The position numbers and the translations under genes were made by a program. Shown piece by piece: positions 4,714 through 63,763 of a stretch of 64,000 nucleotides of DNA (position 1 is the stretch's first letter; each line of letters starts with the position of its first letter). The notes beneath the pieces were generated by a model that did no database searches, was not told the origin of the DNA, and worked only from the letters and a program-made list of their open reading frames with translations. Origin of the DNA: Solirubrobacter deserti (lineage in GTDB: Bacteria; Actinomycetota; Thermoleophilia; Solirubrobacterales; Solirubrobacteraceae); contig NZ_JAPCID010000014.1 of NCBI RefSeq assembly GCF_027587175.1, positions 62,001 through 126,000 on the forward strand, given 5' to 3'.

Positions 4714-7700
4714 GTGGCGACCTGGACCAGCTCCAGCGCGCCGCGCCACACGTAGTAGCCGCGGCCGGGCGGGAAGACCGCGTTCGTGCGCCGCGGCAGG
4801 CGGACGCCGAGCAGGTCGCCGTCGACGTCCAGGTCGGGATCGAGCAGCAGCCCGTGCTCGTCCTTGCGCAGCTCGCGCAGCCAGCCGCCGTAGGCGCGCA
4901 GCACGGCCTGGGTCTCCGCGGCGGCGACGATCCGCACCGGCGCGTCCCGCCCGCGCCGCACGAGCGTCTCCAGCGCGGAGGAGCCGAGCGTCTCGGCCAG
5001 CTCGTCGCCGTCGTCGATCACGACCACGAGCGGCCGGTCGCCCTCGTCCATGTCCGCGGCGAGCGCCGCGAGCTCGGCCGCCTTGGCGTCACAGGCCTCG
5101 ACGCCGCGGGCGACCGACGTCCAGCCGACGTCCGCGGTGGGCAGCGGGCTGCGACGCGGGGCGAGCAGATGCACCGCCGTGCCCGGGTCGCCGTCGAGCA
5201 GCGAGCGGGCGATCGTCTCCAGCGTCGTCGAGCGGCCCGAGCGGTACGGGCCGGCGACGAGGAAGTGCGCGTCGGCGAGGTCGACGGCGACGCTGTCGAG
5301 GTCCTCGTCGCCGAGGCCGAGGACCGGCCGCAGATGGGAGGCGGGCGGGAGCTCGTCGCGCGAGACGGACGCCGGCAGCGGCGCGATCGGCGGCACGTGG
5401 CCTTCGCCGTGGCGGTCCCGGAGCGCGCGGGCCGCGCGGTTGATCGCGGCCAGCTGGCCCTCACCGGACGGGTCGTCGCCGACGAGCGCGATCTGGGCCT
5501 CCATCGCGCCGCGCACGAAGCCGCGGCCCGCGGGAAGCGCCACGTCCTTGGTCGCCCGCATGTCCAGCCCGAGCGAGCCGTACTCGTCCGGGTCGGCCAT
5601 CCGCAGCACGACCTTGGTCGGCACGATGCCGCTGAGCTGGCCGGAGATCGTCGCGCGCCGCTCGGCCGTGATCACGAAGTGCACGCCGAGCGGGCGGCTG
5701 TCGGCGACCAGGCGCGGCAGCAGGTCCACCATCTCGCCGAGGTTGATGCGCTCGAAGGCGGCGAAGAAGCCCGCGTAGCCGTCGAACAGGATCACGATCC
5801 GCGGCAGCGTCTCGTGCTCGGGGACGGCGCGGTTGTACTCGCTGAGCGTGAACGCGCCGCGCGCCGCGAAGCGCTCACGGCGGGCGGCGAGCGTCTTGCG
5901 GATCGTGCTGACCAGCCGCGTCACGCGCTCCTCGTCCTCGCCGAGGACGACGCCGCCGCAGTGCGGCAGCGCCTCCAGCGACGTGAGGCCGCGCGTGGCG
6001 AAGTCGAGCCCGTAGAGGTGCAGGCGGTCCGGGCCGGTCTGGCCGGCCAGGGCGAGCGCGATCGTGCGCAGCAGCGCCGTCTTGCCCGCGCCGCTGGCGC
6101 CGTAGACGAGCAGTGAGCCGTCGTTCTCGAAGTCGTGCGTGAGCGGGATGCGGCGCTGTCGCGCGGGCTCGTCGATGACGCCGAACGTCACGACGGGATC
6201 GGCGCTCGGGGGCAGCGACTCCAGCGGGATGATCGGCTCCAGCGCCGGCAGCCACGGAGACCGCTGGCGCGGGATCTCCTCGCGCTCGGCGGCGACGTTG
6301 ACCGCCTTCACGAGCTCCTCGAGGTCGGTGGAGACGGTGCCGAACGCGCTCGAGGGGCGGCTCGGCTGCGCGCCGTCGTCGGCGGCGCGGCCGAAGCCGA
6401 AGTCGCGCAGCTCGATCGCGGGCGCCGAGTCCGCCGCGGCCGTGATGCCGCCGACGTAGGCGGCCTGGAACTCCTGCAGCTCGGCCGCGCCCACGCGGGC
6501 GAGCGCGCGGCCGGGCGTGGTGCGCGGGATGCGGGCCGCGTCGCCGACGCCGACGACGTCCGCGGACTCGGTCGCGGCGGCCATGCGCAGCGCGATCCGC
6601 AGGTTCACGTTGGCGCGGATGTTCTCGGACACGACGCCGCCCGGGCGCTGCGTCGCGAGCACGAGGTGCACGCCGAGCGAGCGGCCGCGCTGAGCCACGT
6701 CGACGACGCCCTCGACGAACTCCGGCACCTCCTTGGCCAGCGTCGCGAACTCGTCGATCACGATCACGAGGCTCGGCGGCGCGTCGCTGGAGCGGCGCTC
6801 CATGTCGATCAGGTCCTTGGCGCCCGCGTCCTTGAGCACGTGCTCGCGGCGCTTGAGCTCGGCGTTCAGGGACGTGAGCGCGCGCTGGGTGAGGTGCGTG
6901 TCCAAGTCGGTGACGAAGCCGACGGTGTGAGGGAGCCCGACGCACTCCTTAAACGCGGCGCCGCCCTTGTAGTCCACGAGCAGGAACGTGAGCCGGTTCG
7001 GCGGGTGCGCGAGCGCGAGCGAGGCGACGAGCGTCTGCAGCAGCTCGGACTTGCCCGCGCCGGTGGTGCCGCCAATCAGCGCGTGCGGGCCGTCCGTTCG
7101 CAGGTCGACCACGAGGTGCTCGTCGCCGGTGGCGCCCAGCGGGGCGGCGAGCTTACGCCTGGCGTCGGCGCGCCAGCGCTCGACGACGTCCTCCGGCGTG
7201 TGCTCGGACTGGCCGAGCAGCTCGAGCAGGGTCACGCGTGACGGGATGCCGCCGCGCACGCCGCTCGTGCTGGTGTCGCGCACGGGCGCGAGCGCGAGCG
7301 CGATCTCGCGCGCGCTGGCGCGGCTGAGGCCGTCGACCGTGACGTCCTCCAGCACGCCGCCGGTGCGGGCGTCGGTGACCACGACGCTCGCGAGCAGCGG
7401 GTCGTGCTCGATGGTGACGCGGCACTCGCCGGGCAGCTCGCGCATCTCGCGGCCGAGCCAGAGCACACCCACGTCGTGCTTGCCCGTGGCGCCGAGCAGC
7501 TCGGCGATCAGGCTGCGCTCGGGCGCGACGCGCTCGTCGAGCACGAGCAGCACGAACAGGCCGCGGCGCGGCGGGCCCGCGCCCATCCGCTCGGCCTCCG
7601 CGCGGCGGCGGCGCTGCAGCGCGATCACCTCTTCCACGAGCCGGCGCGCCTCGACGGGGCCGACCGCGAGCGGCTCGCCCTCGAGCGGGGACCCCTGCGG

Positions 7701-9062
7701 GCGCGTGTGCGGCGTCCACTTGATCCAGCCCAGCTCGGGGACGAGCTCCTCGCGCACGGCGGCGGCGACCATCATCTCGCGCGGGCTGTGCAGCGTCACG
7801 GCCTGGGCCAGCAGCCAGCGCGTGAGCGCGGTGACGCCCGCGGGCGAGCCGCCGAGGCCGACGGCGCCGGCCTCCGGGATCGCGACCAGCACGGGCGCCG
7901 CGGGGATGGTGCGGTGCTGCTCCTCGACGGTCTGCGCCTTGCGGCGCAGCTCCTCCTCGCCGCCCATGTCGACCGCGACCTCGTAGCGGGCGCGCTGGTC
8001 GGCGGTGCCGACGCGCAGGTGCAGGAAGTCGGGATCCGACGGGCGGCGCTCCCACAGGTCGGCGGTGTGGGAGACGGCGCGGTGGATGAGCTCGCCGGCG
8101 TCGGGCGCGGCGGCGTTGCGCTCGTGCTCCTCCTCGGCCGCCGCGGTCGCCAGCTGCTCGGAGAGCTTGGCCAGCTCGCCCTCCCAGCGCGTGCGCTCCT
8201 CCGCGCTGGCCTTCCTGCCGCCGCGGCGGTCCTCGATGTAGGTCCAGATCGCGAGCACCGGCGTGAGCGCCATGAACAGCAGCATCAGCGGGCTCTTGGT
8301 CACCAGGTACATGACCGCGCCCATCAGCAGCGGCGCGAGGCTGGCGGCGAGCGGCAGCCGCGCCTTGGTCGGCTTGCCGGGCGGGGCGGGCAGCTGAAAG
8401 CGCTGCGGCTGCCAGCGGCGCGGGACGCGCGGCGGGCGGTTGAACGCGACGTTGCCGGCGCCGTCGTCGCCGAGCGCGTCCTGACGCGGGCGGCTCGGGC
8501 GGATCGTGATCAGGCTGCGGGCGAGCCGCAGGCGCTCGCCGTTGGTGAGCGTGTAGGGCTCGTGGTGGCGCAGCGGAGTGTCTCTGACGAACGTGCCGTT
8601 GCCCGAGCCGGGGTCGACGACCGTGACCGCGTCGGGCAGGACCTTCACGCGCAGGTGCTGGCGCGACATCGAAGGGTCGGCGAGCGTGACGTCGCAGGCC
8701 TCGTCGCGGCCGACCATGAACGTGCCGGCGGGCAGCGAGACGATCTTGCCGGCGGCCGGGCCGCCGACGACGACCAGGTCGAAGCGCGCGTTGCCGGTGT
8801 CGGGCCGGCGCGCGGGCGCGTGGCCGAGCGTCAGCGTGTCGCCGTTGCGGACGCCGGCCGCGAGCAGACGCTCGTCGGCGCGCAGCGTGGTGCCGGTGCG
8901 CTCGAGCGTGACGGCCTGGGCGAGCGGCGCACCGAGCTTCGTGGCGATGGCGTCCGCGAACGCGCCGACGGTGACGCTGGGCGCGATCTCGGCCACGAGG
9001 TCGTGCGCGCGGTCGGCGCCGAGCCGGGCGCGCACGTGCAGGACGGTGCGGGTGCCGCTCAT
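4710..9062 (-). CDS. eccC: Type VII secretion motor ATPase EssC/EccC with N-terminal ubiquitin-like and FHA domains
   Basis: 1450-residue FtsK/SpoIIIE-family motor, the driving ATPase of type VII secretion. Domains: ubiquitin/YukD-like fold ~5-80; FHA ~95-180 (FMVGRDEACDV, SMSRQHLRV, GSGNGTF); two membrane helices ~236-274; then three ATPase domains. The first has Walker A GTTGAGKSELL (~665) and Walker B LVIVIDEFA (~765). The second has GASGAGKTALL (~988) and IVILFDG. The third has a degenerate P-loop, GPYRSGRSTT, where Arg replaces Lys. The ATG at 9062 overlaps the stop of the upstream kinase gene (ATGA), so kinase and motor are translationally coupled. An FHA domain binding phospho-Thr made by that kinase is a natural hypothesis. 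Confidence 0.92.
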   Translation of the reverse strand: MSGTRTVLHVRARLGADRAHDLVAEIAPSVTVGAFADAIATKLGAPLAQAVTLERTGTTLRADERLLAAGVRNGDTLTLGHAPARRPDTGNARFDLVVVGGPAAGKIVSLPAGTFMVGRDEACDVTLADPSMSRQHLRVKVLPDAVTVVDPGSGNGTFVRDTPLRHHEPYTLTNGERLRLARSLITIRPSRPRQDALGDDGAGNVAFNRPPRVPRRWQPQRFQLPAPPGKPTKARLPLAASLAPLLMGAVMYLVTKSPLMLLFMALTPVLAIWTYIEDRRGGRKASAEERTRWEGELAKLSEQLATAAAEEEHERNAAAPDAGELIHRAVSHTADLWERRPSDPDFLHLRVGTADQRARYEVAVDMGGEEELRRKAQTVEEQHRTIPAAPVLVAIPEAGAVGLGGSPAGVTALTRWLLAQAVTLHSPREMMVAAAVREELVPELGWIKWTPHTRPQGSPLEGEPLAVGPVEARRLVEEVIALQRRRRAEAERMGAGPPRRGLFVLLVLDERVAPERSLIAELLGATGKHDVGVLWLGREMRELPGECRVTIEHDPLLASVVVTDARTGGVLEDVTVDGLSRASAREIALALAPVRDTSTSGVRGGIPSRVTLLELLGQSEHTPEDVVERWRADARRKLAAPLGATGDEHLVVDLRTDGPHALIGGTTGAGKSELLQTLVASLALAHPPNRLTFLLVDYKGGAAFKECVGLPHTVGFVTDLDTHLTQRALTSLNAELKRREHVLKDAGAKDLIDMERRSSDAPPSLVIVIDEFATLAKEVPEFVEGVVDVAQRGRSLGVHLVLATQRPGGVVSENIRANVNLRIALRMAAATESADVVGVGDAARIPRTTPGRALARVGAAELQEFQAAYVGGITAAADSAPAIELRDFGFGRAADDGAQPSRPSSAFGTVSTDLEELVKAVNVAAEREEIPRQRSPWLPALEPIIPLESLPPSADPVVTFGVIDEPARQRRIPLTHDFENDGSLLVYGASGAGKTALLRTIALALAGQTGPDRLHLYGLDFATRGLTSLEALPHCGGVVLGEDEERVTRLVSTIRKTLAARRERFAARGAFTLSEYNRAVPEHETLPRIVILFDGYAGFFAAFERINLGEMVDLLPRLVADSRPLGVHFVITAERRATISGQLSGIVPTKVVLRMADPDEYGSLGLDMRATKDVALPAGRGFVRGAMEAQIALVGDDPSGEGQLAAINRAARALRDRHGEGHVPPIAPLPASVSRDELPPASHLRPVLGLGDEDLDSVAVDLADAHFLVAGPYRSGRSTTLETIARSLLDGDPGTAVHLLAPRRSPLPTADVGWTSVARGVEACDAKAAELAALAADMDEGDRPLVVVIDDGDELAETLGSSALETLVRRGRDAPVRIVAAAETQAVLRAYGGWLRELRKDEHGLLLDPDLDVDGDLLGVRLPRRTNAVFPPGRGYYVWRGALELVQVAT

Positions 9063-10537
9063 TGGATGAGCGCCCCGCGCAGCGCGTCGATCTCCTTCTG
9101 GAGCGCGGCCTCGGAGCGGCCGATGGATTCGGCCGTCCGGTCGTAGATGCCCTTCTTGTTCGTCTCCGCGGCCTGGCGCATCGTGCCGAAGCGGGTGGCG
9201 AGCTGGTCGACGCGCTGGACGAGCCGCCGGTGTCGGGCGGCGTCCGCGGGCGGCGCCTTGATCGCCTCCAGGTCGTCGCTCGCCTGCTCGAACGTTCGCT
9301 CGAGCCGGCCCACCGCGTCGATCTGGTCGGGGACCGTGGCCGCGTCGGCGAGCGCCCGGCGCTCGGCCCGGTAGGTCAGGCCGAGCCGGTCCACGGTGTC
9401 GTCGACGGCCTCGACGTAGCGCACGTGGGCGCGCTCCTGCGTCGACGGCCCGCGATCGGAGAGCGCGAAGCCGGAGCCGGCGGCGGCCGCGGTGATGACC
9501 ACCGCGAGGGTGATCGTGATCGGCTTGCGGTAGGAGCGCCGCTCGGTCGGGCGCGGGCCGACCTGCGATGCCGAAGGCGGCCGGTCGACGAGCGTCTGGC
9601 CCGCCTGCGGCTGGATCAGCCGGCCGCCGAACGTAGTCGACGCGCTGCGCTCCTGCGGGCGCTCGCCCGTCGAGGTCCGGCGCGCGATCTCGGTCGGCGG
9701 TGGCGGGGGCAGGCGGGTTCCCGCGCCGGTCGCGGCTTCCAGCTCGTCCATCACGGCGGTCGCCGAGTCGACGCGTTGCTCCGGGTCCTTGGCCATCGCG
9801 TGGGCCAGGACGTCGTCCACCTGGCGCGGGACGTCGGGGCGGACCTCGCTCGGGCGCGGAGGCGGCTCGGAGACGTGGGCGAACAGGATCGCGGCGTCCG
9901 ACTCGCGCTCGTAGGGGACACGGCCGGTCAGGCACTCGAACAGCACGGCGCCGAACGCGTAGACGTCGCTGCGGCGCGTCGCGGGCCTGCCGTGGATCTG
10001 CTCGGGCGCGATGTAGTCGAGCGTGCCCACGAACTGGCCCGTGCGCGTGAGACCCGGCTGCCCGAGCGCCTGCGTGAGGCCGAAGTCCGCCAGGTAGGCG
10101 TGGTCGCGGCTGCCGATCAGGATGTTCTGCGGCTTGAAGTCGCGGTGGATCATCCCGGCGTCGTGCGCGGCGTCCAGCGCGTCCGCGATCGGCCGCAGGA
10201 TGCGGATGACGCGGTGCAGGTCGAGCTCCCCGCGCGTGATCAGGTCCTTCAGGCTCGGGCCCTTGATCAGCTGCATCGAGATGTACAGCTGGCCGTCGGC
10301 GTCCCCGAAGTCGTGCACGGTCACCACGTGCGGGTGATCGAGCGCGGCCTGGCTGCGCGCCTCGCGCCGGAACCGCTCCTGGAAGCGATCGTTGCGCGAG
10401 AGCTCCGGGGTGATCACCTTCAGCGCGACCCGGCGGTGCAGCGAGAGCTGGATGGCCTCATAGACCACGCCCATGCCTCCCTGGCCCAGCAGCGCTTCGA
10501 TCTGGTAGTTCCCGATCAGGGATCCCGTTTGGAGCAT
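9059..10537 (-). CDS. Membrane Ser/Thr protein kinase (PknB-like) of the T7SS locus
   Basis: 492 residues. The Hanks-type kinase domain is at ~10-270: Gly loop GQGGMGVVYEA, ATP-binding Lys in VALKVI, catalytic HRDFKPQN, DFG, and the APE box (APEQ). A Pro-rich linker (~285-335) leads to one membrane helix (TITLAVVITAAAAGSGFAL, ~345). The ~125-residue outer part is helical and Glu/Arg-rich, with no PASTA repeats. The ATG at 10537 is chosen because residues upstream in frame do not look like protein and the kinase fold starts directly. Coupled by ATGA overlap to the FHA-bearing motor gene. Likely phosphorylates T7SS components; this is inferred. Confidence 0.9.
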   Translation of the reverse strand: MLQTGSLIGNYQIEALLGQGGMGVVYEAIQLSLHRRVALKVITPELSRNDRFQERFRREARSQAALDHPHVVTVHDFGDADGQLYISMQLIKGPSLKDLITRGELDLHRVIRILRPIADALDAAHDAGMIHRDFKPQNILIGSRDHAYLADFGLTQALGQPGLTRTGQFVGTLDYIAPEQIHGRPATRRSDVYAFGAVLFECLTGRVPYERESDAAILFAHVSEPPPRPSEVRPDVPRQVDDVLAHAMAKDPEQRVDSATAVMDELEAATGAGTRLPPPPPTEIARRTSTGERPQERSASTTFGGRLIQPQAGQTLVDRPPSASQVGPRPTERRSYRKPITITLAVVITAAAAGSGFALSDRGPSTQERAHVRYVEAVDDTVDRLGLTYRAERRALADAATVPDQIDAVGRLERTFEQASDDLEAIKAPPADAARHRRLVQRVDQLATRFGTMRQAAETNKKGIYDRTAESIGRSEAALQKEIDALRGALIQ

Positions 10538-10567
10538 CGACCCTGGAAAGGGTACGTTGGAGTGACG

Positions 10568-10906
10568 ATGATCGAGCTTGTCGGCGACCCCGCAGCAATG
10601 CAGGCCCAGGCCGCGGCCTGGCGCGCCATCGCGGGGCGGATCGCCGACGCGGGCGCCCGTGGCGCGGCGGCCGTCACCGGCGCGCACTTCGAGGGTCCCG
10701 CGGCCGCGCGCGCGAAGGCCGAAGCGCGCTCCGCCGCCGCGCGCGCGACGGGCATCGCGGCCGAGCTGCGCGCGTTGGCGGGCGCGCTCTCGCGCGACGC
10801 CGAGGAGCTCGAAGCCGCCCAACGCCGCCAGCGCGCGCTGGAGGAAGCGGAGGCCGCCGAGTCGGCGGCCCGCGCCGCGGCCGCGGGGGCGGCCGGCAAG
10901 TCGTGA
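10568..10906 (+). CDS. WXG100-like helical protein (HFEGPAA motif)
   Basis: 112 residues, Ala-rich and fully helical, resembling the proteins at 1468 and 2176: VGDPAAMQAQAAAW, then HFEGPAAARAK at ~38 as the turn, then a long second helix ending in an Ala/Glu/Arg tail. The ATG at 10568 has GGAG 5 nt upstream; GTG at 10562 is in frame and possible. It diverges from the kinase gene with only 30 bp between starts, so the two promoters must overlap. Probable T7SS substrate or co-secreted partner of the hydrolase that follows 52 bp later. Confidence 0.68.
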   Translation: MIELVGDPAAMQAQAAAWRAIAGRIADAGARGAAAVTGAHFEGPAAARAKAEARSAAARATGIAAELRALAGALSRDAEELEAAQRRQRALEEAEAAESAARAAAAGAAGKS

Positions 10907-10958
10907 GCGGCGCCGCGCCCGCGCGCCTCCCGGCGCCCGCCCATCCCGCGGGACGTCG

Positions 10959-12266
10959 ATGACGCGGATCTCCATCGAACCGTCCAGCGTTCTGCGGGCG
11001 GCGTCGGCGTTGCGCGATGTCGCCGGCGAGCACCGGCGGTCCGCGTCCCGGCTCGCCTCGGACGGGCTGCCGAGCATGCCGCCGGACCTTGTCGGGCGCT
11101 ACGCGGGGCGCATCCGCGCACTCGCGGCCGACCTCGACGCGTTGGCGGGCGAGCTGGTGCGGGCGGGTTCGAACCTGGACAAGCGGGCGCGGCTCGCCGA
11201 GGCCAGCCAGGCCGGCGCGAGCACGACCACCGTCGTGCCGATCCCGATCCCGCCGCCCGAGCCACCGCTGCGCACGCCGCGCATCCCGAGCGTGAGGATG
11301 CCGCAGTCGGGCGGGCGGGCCGCGCACCTCGCCAACGCGCTCGGCGCGTCCGGCGGCGCGCCGCCCTCGCACCCGGCCGGCGCGGCGTCCCAGCAGGACG
11401 CCGCGTGCTGGCTGGCGGCGCAGTCGCGCTCGGCCGGCGCGCCCGGCGAGCTGCTCGTGATGGCGGCGCTGACCGAGTCGGGCGGCCAGAACCTGTCCTA
11501 CGGCGACCGTGACAGCGTCGGGTACTTCCAGATCCGGCCGTCGACGAACTTCGCGCCTGCGGGGTTCGGCGTCCCGCCCGAGACCAAGGTCTCCGGCGAC
11601 TGGTGGGTGCAGAACCCGGACGCGCAGGCGGCGTGGGCGCGCGACAAGATCGCCGAGACCGCGGGCGGCGAGCGCGACGCCGACCTCTCGGACCCGGTCG
11701 CACTCGGCGCGTGGGCGCAGGCGATCGAGCGCTCGGCCTACCCGGACCGCTACGCGCAGCACTACGACCAGGCGCGCGAGCTGGTCAAGCACTGCTCCGC
11801 GCAGGAGCCGAGCCGGGGCGGCGGGGACGCGCTGCGGATCGCGGCGCGCGAACTCGGCGTGCGCGAGTCGGGGGACAACACGGGCGCGCGCGTGTCCGTC
11901 TTCCAGGACGCGACCGGCGCCTACAACGCGCCGTGGTGCGCGAGCTTCGTCACGTGGGCGCTCGAGGAGTCCGGCCGCTCGATGCCCGACGGCAACTGGG
12001 CCGCGGTCGCCAGCTGGGTGGCCGCCGCGCAGGCGGGCACGGCGGGCCTGGAGCTCGTGTCCGCGGCCGAAGCGCGGCCCGGCGACCTCGTCGCCTACGA
12101 CTGGGGCTTCGGTTCCGACTTCGGCCAGGACGGCCACATCGGCATGCTCGCCACCGACGTCTCGGGCGGGACGTTCGAGGCCATCGAAGGCAACTACCAG
12201 GACGCGGTCACGCACACGTCGCGCTCCGTCGACGACGCCAACGTCGTGTTCATCCGCGTCAGTTGA
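10959..12266 (+). CDS. T7SS-tagged peptidoglycan hydrolase: helical module + lysozyme-like + CHAP
   Basis: 435 residues. Residues 1-85 are the helical module MTRISIEPSSVLRAAS...SMPP...LDKRARLAEAS, shared with the proteins at 2520 and 1-1462. A Pro-rich linker follows (VVPIPIPPPEPPL). Residues ~140-275 are a lysozyme/transglycosylase-like domain with the catalytic-type Glu in ALTESGGQN and SVGYFQI. Residues ~290-435 are a CHAP amidase/endopeptidase with Cys in APWCASFVTW, His in DGHIGML and Asn in EGNYQD. No Sec signal is visible, so export by the T7SS with the N-terminal module as tag is likely. It could open the cell wall for the secretion machine or be an antibacterial effector; I see no dedicated immunity gene. 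Confidence 0.8.
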   Translation: MTRISIEPSSVLRAASALRDVAGEHRRSASRLASDGLPSMPPDLVGRYAGRIRALAADLDALAGELVRAGSNLDKRARLAEASQAGASTTTVVPIPIPPPEPPLRTPRIPSVRMPQSGGRAAHLANALGASGGAPPSHPAGAASQQDAACWLAAQSRSAGAPGELLVMAALTESGGQNLSYGDRDSVGYFQIRPSTNFAPAGFGVPPETKVSGDWWVQNPDAQAAWARDKIAETAGGERDADLSDPVALGAWAQAIERSAYPDRYAQHYDQARELVKHCSAQEPSRGGGDALRIAARELGVRESGDNTGARVSVFQDATGAYNAPWCASFVTWALEESGRSMPDGNWAAVASWVAAAQAGTAGLELVSAAEARPGDLVAYDWGFGSDFGQDGHIGMLATDVSGGTFEAIEGNYQDAVTHTSRSVDDANVVFIRVS

Positions 12267-12934
12267 ACGTCCTCGCGCTCACGGTCGACTACGGCGCGGA
12301 GGAGCTGAGCGCGCTCGGGCGCCTGCTCGCGGCCGACGACGCGCCCGGGCTCGCCGCGCCCGAGCCGGCGCCGATGACGCCGGAGACCCGCCGCGCCGTG
12401 CACGCCGCCGCCTGGCGTGGCCTCGTCGCGCGCCGCGCGATCCTGCTGGAGCCGGGCCCGCCGGCGTCGTTCGCGCTCGCCGAGCCGCACGCCTCGCTGC
12501 TCGCGCCCTTGATCGCGCCGGAGCGGACGGTCGTGCTCGACCGCTGGGAGCCCCGCGGCGGCGAGCGCCGGGTCGCGTTCTACCTGCGCGAGAACGTCGC
12601 GGTCGAGCAGGAGGCGTTGCCCGGGCTGATCTACCGGCACACGCTGATCGCACGCGCGGCCGTGCGCGAGCGGCTGCTGGCCGCCGCCGCCATCCCGGAG
12701 GACCGTCCGCCGGCGCAGGGCCAGCCGTTGGAGACGACGCGCAAGGCGCTCACCGCATCGCGCGACGACACCTCGCCGCCGCTGCTCTACGCCGCGCTCG
12801 CGGTCGGCATGGTCGGCGAGGAGGTCTGGGTCGACGGCGGCGAGCTCGGCCTCTGGCGCGGCCGCGGACAGCGCACGGTGACGCTGCGCCCGACCACGCC
12901 GGACGAGCTGCGCGCCGCGCTCAGTCCTCGATGA
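12263..12934 (+). CDS. Possible EspG-like T7SS chaperone (copy 2)
   Basis: 223 residues from a TTG overlapping the previous stop (TTGA at 12263-12266); no better start lies nearby. N-terminal helices (YGAEELSALGRLL) are followed by a strand-rich middle (ERTVVLDRWEPRGGERRVAF) and a closing VGMVGEEVWVDGGELGLW...TVTLRPTTPDEL. The layout resembles the protein at 4078 and EspG-type ESX chaperones, though identity is low. Coupling to the secreted hydrolase suggests it handles that substrate, and the pairing mirrors the 2520-4078 run. The 3' end overlaps the convergent gene by 14 nt. Confidence 0.48.
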   Translation: MNVLALTVDYGAEELSALGRLLAADDAPGLAAPEPAPMTPETRRAVHAAAWRGLVARRAILLEPGPPASFALAEPHASLLAPLIAPERTVVLDRWEPRGGERRVAFYLRENVAVEQEALPGLIYRHTLIARAAVRERLLAAAAIPEDRPPAQGQPLETTRKALTASRDDTSPPLLYAALAVGMVGEEVWVDGGELGLWRGRGQRTVTLRPTTPDELRAALSPR

Positions 12935-13358
12935 TGATCGCCGGCGTGGGCTTCGGCTTGGGCTTGGACGTCTGCGGCCGCGGCGCGGTCGTCTGCCGGC
13001 GCGGCGCGCTGTAGACCGTCGGCACGGCCGTCACCTGCGGGGCGGCCGTCGGCTGCGGCGCCGGCGCCGACTGCGTCCGCTGGACCGTGGTGCGCCGCTT
13101 CGCCCGCGGCTTCTTCTTCTTGGGCTTCGGCTTGGGCGTCGCCGTCGGCGTGGGGGTGGCCGTCGGGGACGGCGTCGGCGTGGGCGTGCGCAGCGCGGGC
13201 ACCGCGCCGCCGACTGCGAGCGTCGGCGCGGCGGAGTCGGCGTCCGCCGCCTGGGCCGCGGGGGCGCGGTCGAGCGCGCCGCCGCCGAGGTACGCGGCCG
13301 CGAACGCGCTCACGGCGAGCGTCGCGATCACGGCGATGGCGGTGACGGTCGAGCGCAT
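12921..13358 (-). CDS. Membrane-anchored Pro/Thr/Lys-rich extracellular protein
   Basis: 145 residues. An N-terminal membrane segment (TAIAVIATLAVSAFAAAYLG) precedes an almost fully low-complexity outside region: TPTPTPSPTATPTPTATPKP, a Lys/Arg patch (KPKPKKKKPRAKRR) and Pro/Thr/Ala/Gln stretches ending IIIED. The composition suits a wall-spanning stalk. It closes the T7SS locus, converging on the gene at 12263 with a 14-nt overlap. No catalytic domain or known family is recognised; a wall-spanning accessory role is a guess from context. Confidence 0.65.
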   Translation of the reverse strand: MRSTVTAIAVIATLAVSAFAAAYLGGGALDRAPAAQAADADSAAPTLAVGGAVPALRTPTPTPSPTATPTPTATPKPKPKKKKPRAKRRTTVQRTQSAPAPQPTAAPQVTAVPTVYSAPRRQTTAPRPQTSKPKPKPTPAIIIED

Positions 13359-13431
13359 CCGAACCGAAGTATGGCTCAGTGGCGAGCAGACCTGATCGAA
13401 CGTCCGGCCAGCACGAGTCTAAGCTTGTCCG

Positions 13432-14667
13432 GTGACCTCGCCCGCCCGCAACGAGGCGGCGCTTCCCGACCTCGGCGCGCTCGGGGCCATGTCCGATGCC
13501 GTCGAGTCGGGCCTCGGCCTCCCGGAGGTCGTCCGCGCCGCGGCTCGCGCCCTCGACGCGTCGCTCGTGCTGATCGACCGCTCGAGCTCCGTGCTCGCGG
13601 TCGCGGCCCGCTCCACAGCGGACGAGCGCCAGCTGATGCGCGACGCCGAAGGGGTCCAGACGCACGAGCTGCGCGTCGGCGACGTCGTCGTCGGCCGCCT
13701 GCGCCTGCGCCCCCGCGGCGGCGGCCCGTCCGCGGCCATCCTGCGCATCGCGACCACGATGATCGCGTCCGAGGTCGAGCGCCTGCGCGCGCCCGACCGC
13801 GCGTCCGAGGCCGCGCAGTCCGCGTTCCTCACCGCGCTGCTGCAGCGCAAGGTCACCGACCGCGGGGACATCATCGCCCGCGGCTCCGAGCTGGGCGCCG
13901 ACCTCTCGGAGGGCGGCGCGGTCGTCGTCGTCCGCGCCCACCACTTCGCGCCCGCCGACGACGACTGGCGCGCCCGTGTGCTCGCCGCCGCCGAGCGCGC
14001 TGCCCGCGCCGGCGCTCCCGGCGCCCTGGCCGCGGTCCACGACGAGCACGTGGTCGTGCTGCTCCCCACGGCGGAGGACAGCGCGCTGCGCCGCGTCGCG
14101 GACGCCATCGCCCGCGAGTTGCACGCCTCCGTCCACGGCTTCACCTTCGCCGTCGGCCACTCGCGTGTCGCCCAGGACCCGGTCGACCTCTACCGCGCCG
14201 GCAACGAGGCGCTGCTCGCCGCCAACGTCGCGACCGGCAACGAGAGCGACGACGACGTCGCCATGCTCGCCTTCGAGGACACCGGCGCCTACCGCCTCCT
14301 GCTGCCCGCCATGAGCGAGGACCCCGCCGAGCTCCAGCGCTTCTACGAGGAGACCGTCGCCCCGCTCGTCGCCTACGACGACCAGTACGAGACCGACCTG
14401 GTCCAGACGCTCGAGACGTTCCTGGACGCCGACGGCAACGTGGCCGGCACGGCCGCGCGGCTGTTCACGCACCGGCACACGGTCCGGTACCGGCTCGAGC
14501 GGGTGAAGGACCTGAGCGGGTTGGACGTCGCCTCGACCGACGGTCGCGAGAAGCTTGGGCTGGGACTGAAGGCGATGCGCGTGCTGGGCATCGCGGCGCC
14601 GCGCGGACCGGCGACGGAGGCCGGGACCGCGGGTGGGCGGGTCCGGCGCGAAGCGAAGGACCGCTAG
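13432..14667 (+). CDS. PucR/CdaR-family transcriptional regulator
   Basis: 411-residue cytoplasmic regulator. N-terminal ~110 residues look like a GAF/sensor-type fold. The middle (~130-290) is the degenerate GGDEF-like domain of the CdaR/PucR group (LLAANVATGN, MLAFEDTGAYRLLLP). The C-terminal PucR helix-turn-helix spans ~325-385: LVQTLETFLDADGNVAGTAA, then LFTHRHTVRYRLERVKDLSG, the family hallmark. GTG at 13432 is the start. Ligand and targets cannot be read from context: neighbours are a T7SS-end membrane protein and, across a 338-bp gap, a convergent glycosidase gene. Confidence 0.9.
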   Translation: MTSPARNEAALPDLGALGAMSDAVESGLGLPEVVRAAARALDASLVLIDRSSSVLAVAARSTADERQLMRDAEGVQTHELRVGDVVVGRLRLRPRGGGPSAAILRIATTMIASEVERLRAPDRASEAAQSAFLTALLQRKVTDRGDIIARGSELGADLSEGGAVVVVRAHHFAPADDDWRARVLAAAERAARAGAPGALAAVHDEHVVVLLPTAEDSALRRVADAIARELHASVHGFTFAVGHSRVAQDPVDLYRAGNEALLAANVATGNESDDDVAMLAFEDTGAYRLLLPAMSEDPAELQRFYEETVAPLVAYDDQYETDLVQTLETFLDADGNVAGTAARLFTHRHTVRYRLERVKDLSGLDVASTDGREKLGLGLKAMRVLGIAAPRGPATEAGTAGGRVRREAKDR

Positions 14668-58750: not shown

Positions 58751-59376
58751 GCTTGCTGGTCGCCCCCGAACACCGTCCCACGCTGCGCGAGGAGCTCGCG
58801 GGGCTGCCGAATCGGTCCCGCGGCGTGGCGATCGCCGTGCTGGCGCTCCTCGCGCTGGCGGCGGTCGTCCTGCTCGCCCGCGGGACGAGCGAGGAGGGGA
58901 CGCGGGTGGTGGTCGAGGAGCCGATCGCGTTCAACCTGCGCTACCCGGACTCGATGAAGCGGATCGAGGACGACACGCTGTTCCACCTCGAGCGCAAGGG
59001 CGTGGACGAGTTCATCGTCGAGCCGCTGGAGCTCCCGGCCTACCGGGGCGACGTCGGCGGCGTCCTGCCGGTGGAGGCCTCGCGCGAGATCGAGCGCCTA
59101 CGGGAGCGGTTCCCGCAGCTCGAGCTGGTGGAGGAGGGAAAGGTGCGCATCAACCGCGTGGCGGGCTACTCGCTGGCGTTCCGGGCGAGCCGCAGCCCGC
59201 GGCTGTACGGCCGGCTCGTGCTGCTGCCCGAGCCGGTGCCCGGCGCCCGCTCCGGCGTGAAGCTGCTGATGCTGGCCACGCCGAAGGGCGGTGCCGGCAA
59301 GGCGCGCGACGTGGGCACGAACGGCCTACTCAAGACGCCCTACCGCTCGTTGCGCTTCGGCACGGAGGGTCCGTGA
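58747..59376 (+). CDS. Membrane-anchored hypothetical protein
   Basis: 209 residues from TTG 58747, overlapping the previous stop (TTGA). Cytoplasmic start, one membrane segment (GVAIAVLALLALAAVVLLAR), then an outside alpha/beta domain: EEPIAFNLRYPDSMKRIEDD, LEVASREIERLRERF-like helix, VEEGKVRINRVAGYSLAFRA, LYGRLVLLPEPVPGARSGVK, LLMLATPKGG. The second part has a Mog1/PsbP-like feel (peptide, then RxAGYSLAF strand), but I do not assign it. Followed by a coupled CsaA-like gene. Confidence 0.7.
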   Translation: MSLLVAPEHRPTLREELAGLPNRSRGVAIAVLALLALAAVVLLARGTSEEGTRVVVEEPIAFNLRYPDSMKRIEDDTLFHLERKGVDEFIVEPLELPAYRGDVGGVLPVEASREIERLRERFPQLELVEEGKVRINRVAGYSLAFRASRSPRLYGRLVLLPEPVPGARSGVKLLMLATPKGGAGKARDVGTNGLLKTPYRSLRFGTEGP

Positions 59377-59705
59377 CCATCGACTACGACCACTTCGCCG
59401 CCGTCGACATGCGCGTCGGCCGGATCATCGCGGTGGAGGACTTCCCCGAGGCCCGCAAGCCGGCGTGGAAGCTGACGATCGACTTCGGCGACGAGATCGG
59501 CGAGAAGCGCTCCAGCGCGCAGATCACCAACTATGCGCGCGAGGAGCTCGTCGGCCGCCGGATCGTCGCGGTCGTCAACTTCCCGCCGCGCCAGATCGGA
59601 CCCGTGCGCTCCGAGGTGCTGGTGCTCGGCGCGTCGGACGAGGAGGGCCGCGTGATCCTGCTCGCGCCGGACACCGACGTGCCGCTCGGCGCGCGGATTC
59701 ACTGA
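59373..59705 (+). CDS. csaA: CsaA-like tRNA-binding-domain protein
   Basis: 110 residues forming one OB-fold tRNA_bind domain: FAAVDMRVGRIIAVEDFPEA, RKPAWKLTIDFGDEIGEKRS, SAQITNYAREELVGRRIVAV, VNFPPRQIGPVRSEVLVLGA. Length and motifs match CsaA, a proposed secretion-related chaperone and homodimer in Bacillus. GTG 59373 overlaps the upstream stop (GTGA). Confidence 0.87.
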   Translation: MTIDYDHFAAVDMRVGRIIAVEDFPEARKPAWKLTIDFGDEIGEKRSSAQITNYAREELVGRRIVAVVNFPPRQIGPVRSEVLVLGASDEEGRVILLAPDTDVPLGARIH

Positions 59706-59732: not shown

Positions 59733-61520
59733 GTGGCCCCCACGGAGCTCCAATCCACCCAGGTCGACCTGGCCGGTCTGATGACCGTGCTGGGCGGCCA
59801 TCTCTACTCGACGCCCGCGGTCGCCGTCCGCGAGCTGGTGCAGAACGCGCACGACTCGATCACGCGCCGCAGGCTGGAGGACGACGGCTTCACCGGCGGA
59901 CGCATCGACGTCACGTCGGACCCGGCGAGCGGCACGCTGACCGTCCGCGACGACGGCGCGGGCATGACCCGCGAGGAGATCGATCGCTTCCTGGCGACGG
60001 TCGGCGTCGGCTACACGCGCGGGCTGCGTGAGCGGTCCGACGAGCTGATCGGCCAGTTCGGCCTCGGCTTCCTGTCCGCGTTCATCGTCGGCGAGCGCAC
60101 GGTCGTGCGGACCGCGTCCTACCAGGCGCCGGACAGCGCGTACGAGTACACGAGCACCACCGGCGAGCGCTACAGCGTCGAGCCGTGCGCGCCGCGCGAG
60201 GTGGGCACGGAGGTCGAGCTCACGCTCGGCGCCGACCATCGCGAGCTGGCCGACCGGGCGGTGCTCGCCGGCGTCGTGGGCCGCTACTGCGCGCTGCTCG
60301 GGCTGCCGGTGTTCGTCAACGGCGAGCAGGTGAACGCCGATGCGCCGCCGTGGCGCGCGGCGTCCGAGGACGTCGTCGTCCATCCCATCCAGGCGCGCAA
60401 GCAGGCGCTCGCGTTCGCCGAGCGGATGGACCCGTCGTTCCGGCCGCTGTGCACGCTGGAGGTCGACGGCGGCGGCGTGCGCGGGCTCCTGTGGATCCAG
60501 GACGTGCTCACCTACGGCTCCTGGGACAACCGCCGGCTCGCGGTCTACGTGCGCGGGATGCTGCTCGACGACGACGCCCGCGACCTGCTGCCGCGCTGGG
60601 CCGGCTTCGTCTCCGGCGCGGTCGAGTCGGACGTGCTGACGCCCACCGCCAGCCGCGAGGACCTGCAACGCGACGACGCGTGGGAAGCGGCGCGGACCGC
60701 GCTGCACGAGGCGCTGGTCGCCGGGCTGGCCAAGGTCGCAGCCGAGCAGCCGGAGGCGTGGGCGCGCGTGCTCACCCGCCACAACGAGGGCCTGCTCGGC
60801 GCGGCGCTGGCCGACGAGCAGCTCGAGGCGCTGCTCGCCGACCAGCTGAAGGTGCCGACCAGCGAAGGCGACATGACGGTGCGCGAGCTCGTCGACGGTG
60901 GCGACGGCCGCGCGCACGTCGGGCTCGGCACGGGCGGGTTCGAGGAGATGCGCTTCCGCGCGCTCAAACGGCCGATCGCGACCGGGACGCGCTACGCGGT
61001 CGTCCCGTTCGTGCGCCAGTGGTGCGGTGCGCGGGGGATCGACGTCGTCGAGCTCGGCACCTCCAGCGGCGACCGGGCGCTGTTCGAGCGGGTGCAGCTG
61101 GAGGAGGCGGCGTGGCTCGCCGAGCAGTTGACGCGCGAGCGGCAGGAGCTCGTGCCGGCGCGCTTCGAGCCGGCCGAGATGCCGTTCGTGCTCGTCCCCG
61201 ACCGCGAGGCGGAGCTCAAAGCCCGGCTGGAGGCGGACGAGGCGCGCGAGCGGATCGCCTCGGCCGCGTTGCACCTCGCGCGCGAGCACACGGCGACGAT
61301 CGACGGCACGTACGACGCGCGGCTGTACGTGAACGTGGACTCGCCCGTGATCGCCGCGCTGCTGGAGGCCCACCGGGCCGGCCAGGACGTCGAGGTGGCG
61401 CTGGACCTGGTGCGCGCCGTGCTCGCGCTGATGGCGGCGGGCGAGCGGGAGACGCGGGCCGAGGTGGATCTGCTGGGAGCGTTGAGCGGTGTCGGCGAAG
61501 CGGTGCGGAGGCTCTTGTGA
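59733..61520 (+). CDS. Hsp90-like molecular chaperone ATPase (HtpG-related)
   Basis: 595 residues. GHKL ATPase domain at the N-terminus: AVRELVQNAHDSITRRR (~32-48, Mg/ATP Asn and catalytic-type Glu), DDGAGMTREEIDRFL (~74), GQFGLGFLSAFIVGER (~107). The middle domain (~230-400) contains RGLLWIQDVLTYGSWDNRRL and VRGMLLDDDARDLLPRWAGF, then VVESDVLTPTASREDLQRDD-like sequence, matching HtpG order. The C-terminal third (ALKRPIATGTRYAVVPFVRQ...) diverges and lacks a clear HtpG dimer motif. Translationally coupled to a large TPR-like gene. Confidence 0.86.
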   Translation: MAPTELQSTQVDLAGLMTVLGGHLYSTPAVAVRELVQNAHDSITRRRLEDDGFTGGRIDVTSDPASGTLTVRDDGAGMTREEIDRFLATVGVGYTRGLRERSDELIGQFGLGFLSAFIVGERTVVRTASYQAPDSAYEYTSTTGERYSVEPCAPREVGTEVELTLGADHRELADRAVLAGVVGRYCALLGLPVFVNGEQVNADAPPWRAASEDVVVHPIQARKQALAFAERMDPSFRPLCTLEVDGGGVRGLLWIQDVLTYGSWDNRRLAVYVRGMLLDDDARDLLPRWAGFVSGAVESDVLTPTASREDLQRDDAWEAARTALHEALVAGLAKVAAEQPEAWARVLTRHNEGLLGAALADEQLEALLADQLKVPTSEGDMTVRELVDGGDGRAHVGLGTGGFEEMRFRALKRPIATGTRYAVVPFVRQWCGARGIDVVELGTSSGDRALFERVQLEEAAWLAEQLTRERQELVPARFEPAEMPFVLVPDREAELKARLEADEARERIASAALHLAREHTATIDGTYDARLYVNVDSPVIAALLEAHRAGQDVEVALDLVRAVLALMAAGERETRAEVDLLGALSGVGEAVRRLL

Positions 61521-63763
61521 ACATCTGGTCGTGGGTGCATGACGTCGAGCGCGAGCTGCGTGAGAGCGGCAACGAGCGGCTCGCGGAGCTGATCGACCGG
61601 CTGCCGGACGCGGCGCTCGACGACCAGAACGCCGAGGTCGAGGCGATCGTCCCCGAGGCGCTCGCCCTCGCGCGCTCGGCCGAGCTGCCGTGGGTGGAGA
61701 TCTTCATTCGCCACTGGCACCTGCAAGCCACCGGCGACGGGTTCGAGAAGGTGCCGTACGCGGTCGAGACGCTCGAGTTCAGCCACCGCGAGGAGCACCG
61801 CGCGTGCCCGCAGTCCGTGTGCACCGTCCAGGACCTCGCGCACGCCTACAGCGGCGCGGACGGCCCGGGCTACGCCGAGGAGCGGCTCGCGGTCGTCGAG
61901 GAGGCGCTGGAGCGCATCGACCCGTCGTGGGACTGCTTTCACTGCATGGTCGTGGAGAAGGTCAACGCGCTGTCGGATCTGGAGCGATACGAGGAGGCGC
62001 TGGAGGTCGCGCGTGAAGGGAGGGCTCGGGCGGCGGCCGCGGGCCGCGATTACGGCAACGCCGAGGACGACGTGACCACGCCGCTGCTGCGGTTGCGCCG
62101 CTTCCAGGAGGCGCTGGAGTCGGCGGCGCCGCGCCGCGACGAGCGCGACGACACGTTCGCACGCTGGCGGCAGATGGCGCGGACGGAGGCGCTGATCGGG
62201 CTCGGCCGGATCGACGACGCGCTCGCCGAGCTGGCCGATCCGGAGCCGGTGCTGCGCGAGCCGCGTTACCACCTCGGGTGGGCCCAGGACGTCGAGCGGC
62301 TCGTCCGGCGCGGGCGACTGACCAACGACTGGCGGCTCGGCGGGCTGCTGGAGCGGATGGTGGCAGCGCAGGTCGAGCGCGGTCGCGCGTGGGACGGCGT
62401 CCAGCTCGCGGCCATCCACGGGCGGCTGGCACTGTGGCGCGGGGCGACCGTCACGGCGCGGAAAGCGCTGGACGATATGCGCGCCCTGGCCGCGCGCCTG
62501 CGGTCCCCGGAGCGGGCCCACGCGTTCGTGCGCGCGCTGGAGGCCGGGCTGGAGCGCATGCGGGAGCGCGAGCCCGTGCTGCCCGAGTCGGCCGAGGCGT
62601 TTCTCGACGCGTGGCGCGCGGAGGAGCGCAGCGACCCGGAGCTCGACCTCGAGCGGCTGCACGCGGCGCGCCGGCGCTGGCCGGACGAGCTGCAGGTGGC
62701 CTGGGGGCTGCACTCGGCACTGGAGGCCGTGGGCCGGGAGGAGGACTCGCTCACGGTGCTGCGCGAGTTCGCGGACGCGCACGTGGAGGACGCCGACGCG
62801 CAGGCGATGCTCGCCCACACGCTGATCGACGCGGGCATGGTCGGCGAGGAGGTCGAGCGGCTCGCGGAGCGCCTGCGACCGCTGGACGAGCTGCACGCGG
62901 TGTGGCTGGAGGCGCGCGCGGCGTACCGGGAAGGTGAGATGGAGCGGGCGCGCGAGCGCGCGGAATGGATCGTGGAGCGCGATCAGGAGGCGCTCAACGC
63001 GCGCCGGATCGCCGCGCTGGCGTGCGAGCACCTGAAGGACTTCGAGGCGGCGCTCGTGCACTGCAACGGCGTCCTCGGGCACGCCGGCGAGGACCGCCTG
63101 GCGAGCGCCCACTGGGATCGGCTCGTCCCGGCGACCATCGTCGGCGACTGGGAGGCCGTGCGCGCCTCCGCCGCCGCGCTCGAGATCGACGTGCCCGGCG
63201 ACTCGGGGCCGATCGACGTCGACGCCGGCCTGATCCGCCTGCGGTTCGCGGCCGACGACTTCGTGATCGCGCTTCGCACCGGGCCCGTGAGCGCGCGGGT
63301 GCTCAACGTCGGCCTGCGCGACGAGCCCCAGCACGCGGGCGATCTCGTCGTCTTCGACGCCGAGCCGGTCGGCACGGCCGCCGAAGGCGAGCTCATCACG
63401 TTCCCGGTCGTCCACGTGGTCGCCGAGGGCCCGCGCCGCGCGTACCCGTTCGACGGCGTCGACCCGGGCGACGACGCCTGGAACGCCTTCGTCGACACGC
63501 TCCGCGAGGAGGGCTGGGTGATCGACGTCCGCTACCGCGAGCCCGAGTACCAGCTCGAGGTCGACGGCGAGCAGCGTCCGGGCATCTACGGCCACCTCGC
63601 GGTGCCCGACGACGTCGACGACGCCGCCGCCCACGCGCGGCTCGGCGAGCTCACGGCCGAGTGGGAAGGCCCGTTCACCTGGCTCCCGCTGGCCGAGGCG
63701 GCGGGTGACGACTCCGCGTCGGCACAGCAACGCGAGCACGCCGAGGCGCTGGCGCTGTACTGA
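61517..63763 (+). CDS. Large TPR-like helical repeat protein, partner of the Hsp90-like ATPase
   Basis: 748 residues from GTG 61517, overlapping the Hsp90-like stop (GTGA). Almost wholly helical pairs: LSDLERYEEALEVAREGRAR, LRLRRFQEALESAAPRRDER, ALIGLGRIDDALAELADPEP, WLEARAAYREGEMERARERA, HLKDFEAALVHCNGVLGHAG. From ~570 a different alpha/beta domain appears (DAGLIRLRFAADDFVIALRT, DLVVFDAEPVGTAAEGELIT). TPR domains bind Hsp90 tails in eukaryotes; here coupling suggests a dedicated co-chaperone. The C-terminal domain is of unknown type. Confidence 0.8.
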   Translation: MNIWSWVHDVERELRESGNERLAELIDRLPDAALDDQNAEVEAIVPEALALARSAELPWVEIFIRHWHLQATGDGFEKVPYAVETLEFSHREEHRACPQSVCTVQDLAHAYSGADGPGYAEERLAVVEEALERIDPSWDCFHCMVVEKVNALSDLERYEEALEVAREGRARAAAAGRDYGNAEDDVTTPLLRLRRFQEALESAAPRRDERDDTFARWRQMARTEALIGLGRIDDALAELADPEPVLREPRYHLGWAQDVERLVRRGRLTNDWRLGGLLERMVAAQVERGRAWDGVQLAAIHGRLALWRGATVTARKALDDMRALAARLRSPERAHAFVRALEAGLERMREREPVLPESAEAFLDAWRAEERSDPELDLERLHAARRRWPDELQVAWGLHSALEAVGREEDSLTVLREFADAHVEDADAQAMLAHTLIDAGMVGEEVERLAERLRPLDELHAVWLEARAAYREGEMERARERAEWIVERDQEALNARRIAALACEHLKDFEAALVHCNGVLGHAGEDRLASAHWDRLVPATIVGDWEAVRASAAALEIDVPGDSGPIDVDAGLIRLRFAADDFVIALRTGPVSARVLNVGLRDEPQHAGDLVVFDAEPVGTAAEGELITFPVVHVVAEGPRRAYPFDGVDPGDDAWNAFVDTLREEGWVIDVRYREPEYQLEVDGEQRPGIYGHLAVPDDVDDAAAHARLGELTAEWEGPFTWLPLAEAAGDDSASAQQREHAEALALY

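Follow-up and report, generated by a model that had tools for sequence, protein, structure and literature searches.

The window analysed here is a stretch of 64,000 nucleotides from Solirubrobacter deserti (contig NZ_JAPCID010000014.1, positions 62,001 to 126,000), in which two overlapping genes encode a divergent Hsp90 and a large tetratricopeptide repeat (TPR) protein, hereafter called the partner. The two genes form a conserved two-gene unit present in at least seven phyla. The features of the locus are the following, with T1 denoting the window-type pair:

59733..61520, + strand: Hsp90 gene of the T1 clade, 595 amino acids, GTG start (open reading frame, profile and structure matches)
61517..63763, + strand: partner gene, TPR protein of 748 amino acids, GTG start (open reading frame, homologues, fold)
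61517..61520, + strand: GTGA, four nucleotides shared by the end of the Hsp90 gene and the beginning of the partner gene (sequence)
61517..62581, + strand: partner core of helical repeats, residues 1-355, which occurs alone as a 350-370-amino-acid protein in distant pairs
61805..61945, + strand: four core cysteines, C97 and C102 (CPQSxC), C140 and C143 (CFxC), invariant in 21 homologues
62627..63181, + strand: canonical TPR array, residues ~371-555 (Pfam and fold matches)
63209..63760, + strand: C-terminal alpha/beta domain of no known family, residues ~565-748 (model)
Hsp90 residues ~1-200: GHKL ATPase domain
Hsp90 residues ~210-440: middle domain
Hsp90 residues ~445-595: C-terminal dimerisation-type domain

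The overlap of the two genes, already pointed out in the original prediction, is seen as the GTGA at 61517-61520 and suggests translational coupling of the two genes. The same spacing of -4 nucleotides recurs in several homologous pairs, the intergenic distance in close homologues ranges from -20 to +122 nucleotides, and the spacing is short or overlapping in most pairs.

The assignment of the 595-residue protein to Hsp90 can be regarded as secure from its profile and structure matches. Both the GHKL ATPase domain and the Hsp90 middle domain were detected, the Pfam HSP90 family (PF00183) was matched at 37.5 bits against a cut-off of 24.4, with PF13589 also above cut-off, and Hsp90 structures in the PDB were matched down to E 2e-32. 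The curated cut-offs were reached neither for NF010683 (PRK14083, HSP90 family protein; E 3e-83, 280.1 bits, cut-off 455) nor for the HtpG model NF003555 (E 6e-54, 183.5 bits, cut-off 371), and therefore this is a divergent Hsp90 that falls in neither curated family. It is the sole Pfam HSP90 match within its genome, and no relatives at E 1e-20 or better were found in the other sampled genomes of its class. An AlphaFold2 model derived from a 29-row alignment (predicted local distance difference test, pLDDT, 84) aligned over residues 10-595 with residues 7-625 of HtpG (9a6t_B; Z 34.5, 534 residues, root mean square deviation 5.8) and matched TRAP1 with Z 35. It had initially been proposed that the HtpG C-terminal end is missing, a claim that did not stand, since the model aligns with full-length HtpG up to residue 595 and the protein is merely shorter; a truncated Hsp90 is ruled out by the C-terminal domain present in that alignment. 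Additionally, E34, N38, D73, G75, G77, G107, G110, G112 and R308 are invariant over 29 Hsp90 rows, nearly all of them from pairs, and the ATPase residues (E34, N38, D73, the G107-G112 loop and R308) align with canonical HtpG. No EEVD motif was present in the Hsp90 tails listed, and the window protein terminates in GEAVRRLL. As seen in sequence and model, the domains, residues and lineage are those of a complete Hsp90, from which ATPase competence and homodimerisation are predicted.

Regarding the partner, an AlphaFold2 model (21 rows, pLDDT 90.9) is helical from residue 3 to residue 554 and ends in an alpha/beta domain (~565-748). The Pfam TPR match in the window partner itself was weak (E 3e-4), TPR_2 was matched in 16 of the 21 homologues, and a PDB fold search with the model retrieved TPR and superhelix folds only, the top one being the MalT superhelix (Z 21.3), with the C-terminal domain barely covered. 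The homologue matches, the modelled helices and the fold matches uphold the initial description of the partner as a TPR or helical-repeat protein; the C-terminal alpha/beta domain without a family, likewise anticipated, appears in the model and has no Pfam match. A likeness of this domain to DUF4265 was noticed by eye, and hhalign returned a colinear but weak match (probability 5, E 0.007). No family describing the core was found in Pfam, NCBIfam or the PDB, where both core types were searched, or in PADLOC, searched with the window type only. The invariant core cysteines probably constitute a metal or redox site, and the CxxC of the window-type core is in register with the invariant DCxxC of a second partner type.

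The conservation of the pair was evaluated by searching GTDB genomes with only the window Hsp90 as query, considering the best 80 loci, which were the matches listed; besides T1, pairs with the second CxxC core type (T2) and with a further core type (T1b) were distinguished. Among these matches, the window-type partner was the next gene on the same strand in 32/32 of the nearest Hsp90 loci, whose Hsp90s mostly share 45-55% identity with that of the window (one shares 40%) and belong to Stenotrophomonas, Xanthomonas, Pseudomonas, Escherichia, Budvicia, Phytobacter, Superficieibacter, Azoarcus, Parabeggiatoa, Pleionea, Kitasatospora, Streptomyces and Acidimicrobiales. Two of these 32 loci carry a core-length partner only (350-364 amino acids), and in Parabeggiatoa a core-only copy followed by a full partner lies downstream of one Hsp90. 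The 48 more distant loci listed showed a related or TPR-type neighbour gene in 41 cases, all but one directly next to the Hsp90 gene (36 second-type CxxC cores, three T1b cores, two other TPR genes; seven had none). The hosts of these loci belong to Actinomycetota, Myxococcota, Bacteroidota, Bacillota, Planctomycetota and Chloroflexota, which together with Pseudomonadota amount to seven phyla; since many of the loci come from closely related bacteria, the phylum count weighs more than the locus count. No partner-profile match was found at any of 23 canonical HtpG loci, all from actinomycetes, and only Hsp90 and the partner were common beyond close kin in the gene neighbourhoods of 18 T1 loci. 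The predicted coupling of the Hsp90 gene to a TPR partner is thus seen at near and distant loci and not at the HtpG controls, and chance neighbourhood is ruled out by these controls together with a reciprocal test.

In this reciprocal test, 296 actinomycete genomes were searched with the sister family NF010683 at its cut-off and then with a partner-core profile. NF010683 identified 11 loci in nine genomes and the core profile 13 loci, 11 of which adjoin the 11 NF010683 Hsp90s; counted by genome, nine had both, none Hsp90 only, two partner only and 285 neither (Fisher p 1.3e-15, phylogeny ignored). The co-occurrence put forward as a check in the original prediction was therefore observed at 11/11 NF010683 loci. 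Two genomes of one genus carry two NF010683 loci each, every locus with its own adjacent core, and from these the pair seems to duplicate or to be acquired as a unit. In the genus of the window, the pair occurs together in 3/7 genomes, of which two represent the same species, and the remaining genomes lack the partner.

Hsp90 and partner distances were strongly correlated in Mantel comparisons (T1, r 0.955; T2, r 0.956; 0/5000 permutations as high), which shows co-inheritance and not contact. In an unrooted Hsp90 tree obtained by a quick method, the T1 Hsp90s shared one branch with the T1b rows and a single unpaired planctomycete (Shimodaira-Hasegawa approximate likelihood ratio test, SH-aLRT, 97), the T2 Hsp90s and two unpaired planctomycetes made up a separate one (SH-aLRT 100), and canonical HtpG a third (SH-aLRT 100). 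The window and Kitasatospora-type rows, from Actinomycetota, fell together with those of Xanthomonadaceae and Enterobacterales, a grouping suggestive of transfer between phyla; because of this tree and the variable neighbours, the pair would move between phyla as a unit. A profile comparison of the T1 and T2 cores gave a probability of 84 (E 7e-6) with the CxxC motifs in register, versus 4.5 in a control with the ordinary TPR portion of the window-type partner. The two cores are probably homologous, which makes it likely, though short of proof, that the pairing arose once.

In the window, a tRNA_bind (CsaA-like) gene at 59373-59705 ends 27 nucleotides upstream of the Hsp90 start, and CsaA proteins have been described as chaperone-like. 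This gene is retained, with 91% identity, in another species of the genus, and elsewhere it does not accompany the pair. A larger operon was rejected despite this neighbour, as no third family recurred beyond close kin across the 18 loci compared. Variations of the downstream arrangement were also observed: an Anaerolineae bacterium has tandem partner genes after one Hsp90, and in a Fimbriiglobus planctomycete the core starts 772 nucleotides downstream of Hsp90, with a small gene, PIN-like by eye, in between.

The pair is also present in well-known species. In Escherichia coli, a T1 pair was found in 245/5426 complete genomes (~4.5%), which allows genomes with and without it to be compared inside a single species; in strain FDAARGOS_144, the one genome read, it lies at 10001-14144 of the examined stretch, between fdhD and yiiG. 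A T1 pair of Pseudomonas aeruginosa, on a megaplasmid stretch, is located beside branched-chain amino acid transporter genes, with Na+/H+ antiporter genes also in the flanks, and from the gene order we take the pair of this species to be PA1068-PA1069. In Listeria monocytogenes (plasmid-labelled record, 6794-8762), a T2 Hsp90 is followed by a tandem of two cores (scoring 255 and 245 bits) in a locus adjoining fri and a SMI1/KNR4 gene, which is presumably lmo0942-lmo0941-lmo0940.

Given that the two genes remain adjacent while their surroundings differ, their products very probably function together, and these findings make it fairly probable that the pair represents a dedicated bacterial module of Hsp90 and co-chaperone (or client adaptor). 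In such a module, the Hsp90 would be a complete chaperone whose paralogous lineage is distinct from that of canonical HtpG, and the TPR partner would probably be made with it from one mRNA, the genes being overlapping or closely spaced. The partner would bind the Hsp90 dimer via its cysteine-bearing core, while the further TPRs and the alpha/beta domain may hold a client or effector, or control the ATPase cycle. That the core alone (350-370 amino acids) suffices in many pairs is in line with the core being the putative Hsp90-facing part; binding through MEEVD and a carboxylate clamp is impossible here because the window Hsp90 does not have that tail. A broader version, in which the pair is an ancient obligate bacterial Hsp90-TPR machine, independent of MEEVD, with a metal- or redox-sensing cysteine core and exchanged as a two-gene unit among at least seven phyla, is proposed only tentatively.

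Several observations weigh against the co-chaperone module. The link is not absolute, as 7 of the 48 distant Hsp90s listed have no partner and two actinomycete genomes contain orphan cores (~227-255 bits) with no detectable Hsp90 nearby. The homology of the T1 and T2 cores rests on a moderate profile match. In P. aeruginosa PAO1 under heat shock, PA1069 mRNA decreased (log2 -2.0) whereas htpG increased (2.8) (PMC4957987), so that a general heat-shock role is unlikely there. Moreover, adjacency and correlated divergence are also compatible with an obligate client or with two proteins that share a pathway and never touch, and genomic data alone cannot separate these two from a co-chaperone.

The main rival is an obligate client, in which the Hsp90 would mainly fold or activate this one repeat protein, itself the bearer of the biological function. 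The one-to-one pairing is expected from such a relationship, as are the faster divergence of the partner (mean distance 0.61 versus 0.44 for Hsp90 in T1) and the gain or loss of its C-terminal parts, as in a client or effector. However, many pairs keep the core alone with its conserved cysteines, as would rather be expected of a binding module, some cores are orphans, and TPRs are classical folds of Hsp90 co-chaperones; an obligate client is thus considered rather unlikely. A shared pathway, such as a stress or envelope programme, whose two genes are held together by operon selection and transfer with no contact, is less likely still. Contact and pathway are indistinguishable by adjacency, and PA1069 was noted as operonic with an Hsp90 gene and induced by calcium and in biofilms (PMC4053335), but in at least seven phyla exactly these two genes are kept and no third one is conserved alongside them, and most pairs are closely spaced or overlapping. 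An anti-phage or other conflict module is highly improbable despite the patchy distribution (the 3/7 genomes of the genus and 245/5426 of E. coli), considering that PADLOC gave no match to the partner and only weak shared-ATPase matches to the Hsp90 and that the inspected flanks resemble housekeeping or transport loci (fdhD-yiiG in E. coli; in P. aeruginosa, genes for the branched-chain amino acid transporter and the Na+/H+ antiporter). A defence island was unsupported by the same PADLOC search, and a phage origin was rejected, the three weak viral contig matches covering the ATPase domain only and the BFVD matches being generic TPR proteins.

When compared with known systems, the co-chaperone module proposed here resembles in layout the NF010683/PRK14083 pair of Streptomyces, Corynebacterium and others, where a short Hsp90 of comparable length is likewise followed immediately by a large helical protein whose core contains a CxxC, although that Hsp90 belongs to another clade and the partners' cores are only distantly alike. 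Canonical HtpG (hsp90A) shares the three-domain fold and the ATPase residues with the window Hsp90, but it occupies a separate branch and is not paired with a TPR gene (0/23 loci). Divergent second bacterial Hsp90s are also represented by the hsp90B and hsp90C paralogues: Chen 2006 (PMC1525184) described these groups, including HTPG2 of S. coelicolor (615 amino acids) and of B. fragilis (588 amino acids), and the hsp90A, B and C naming was used by Press 2013 (PMC3708813). The window Hsp90 agrees with them in length and divergence, and is left unassigned between B and C. Press 2013 stated that no obligate Hsp90 co-chaperones had been identified in bacteria, made no mention of TPR or operon, and excluded divergent paralogues from the analysis; a divergent lineage of this kind is seen here with a dedicated, co-inherited TPR partner. 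A description of the pair as a module was not found in the open-access literature, and one may exist in subscription papers. The Hsp90 paralogues were already known, and the P. aeruginosa pair had been mentioned in passing by one paper. PA1068-PA1069 (T1) and lmo0942-lmo0941-lmo0940 of Listeria (T2) are members of the same pair types, annotated merely as an ATP-binding or HSP90 family protein and a hypothetical protein. In eukaryotes, the TPR co-chaperones Hop/Sti1, FKBP51 and PP5 bind the C-terminal MEEVD of Hsp90; a TPR protein working with Hsp90 is likewise proposed here, whereas the window Hsp90 has no MEEVD. If this is true, the arrangement of Hsp90 and TPR partner is not solely eukaryotic, and the little-studied second bacterial Hsp90s gain a concrete partner that can be tested in Streptomyces, P. 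aeruginosa PAO1 and E. coli.

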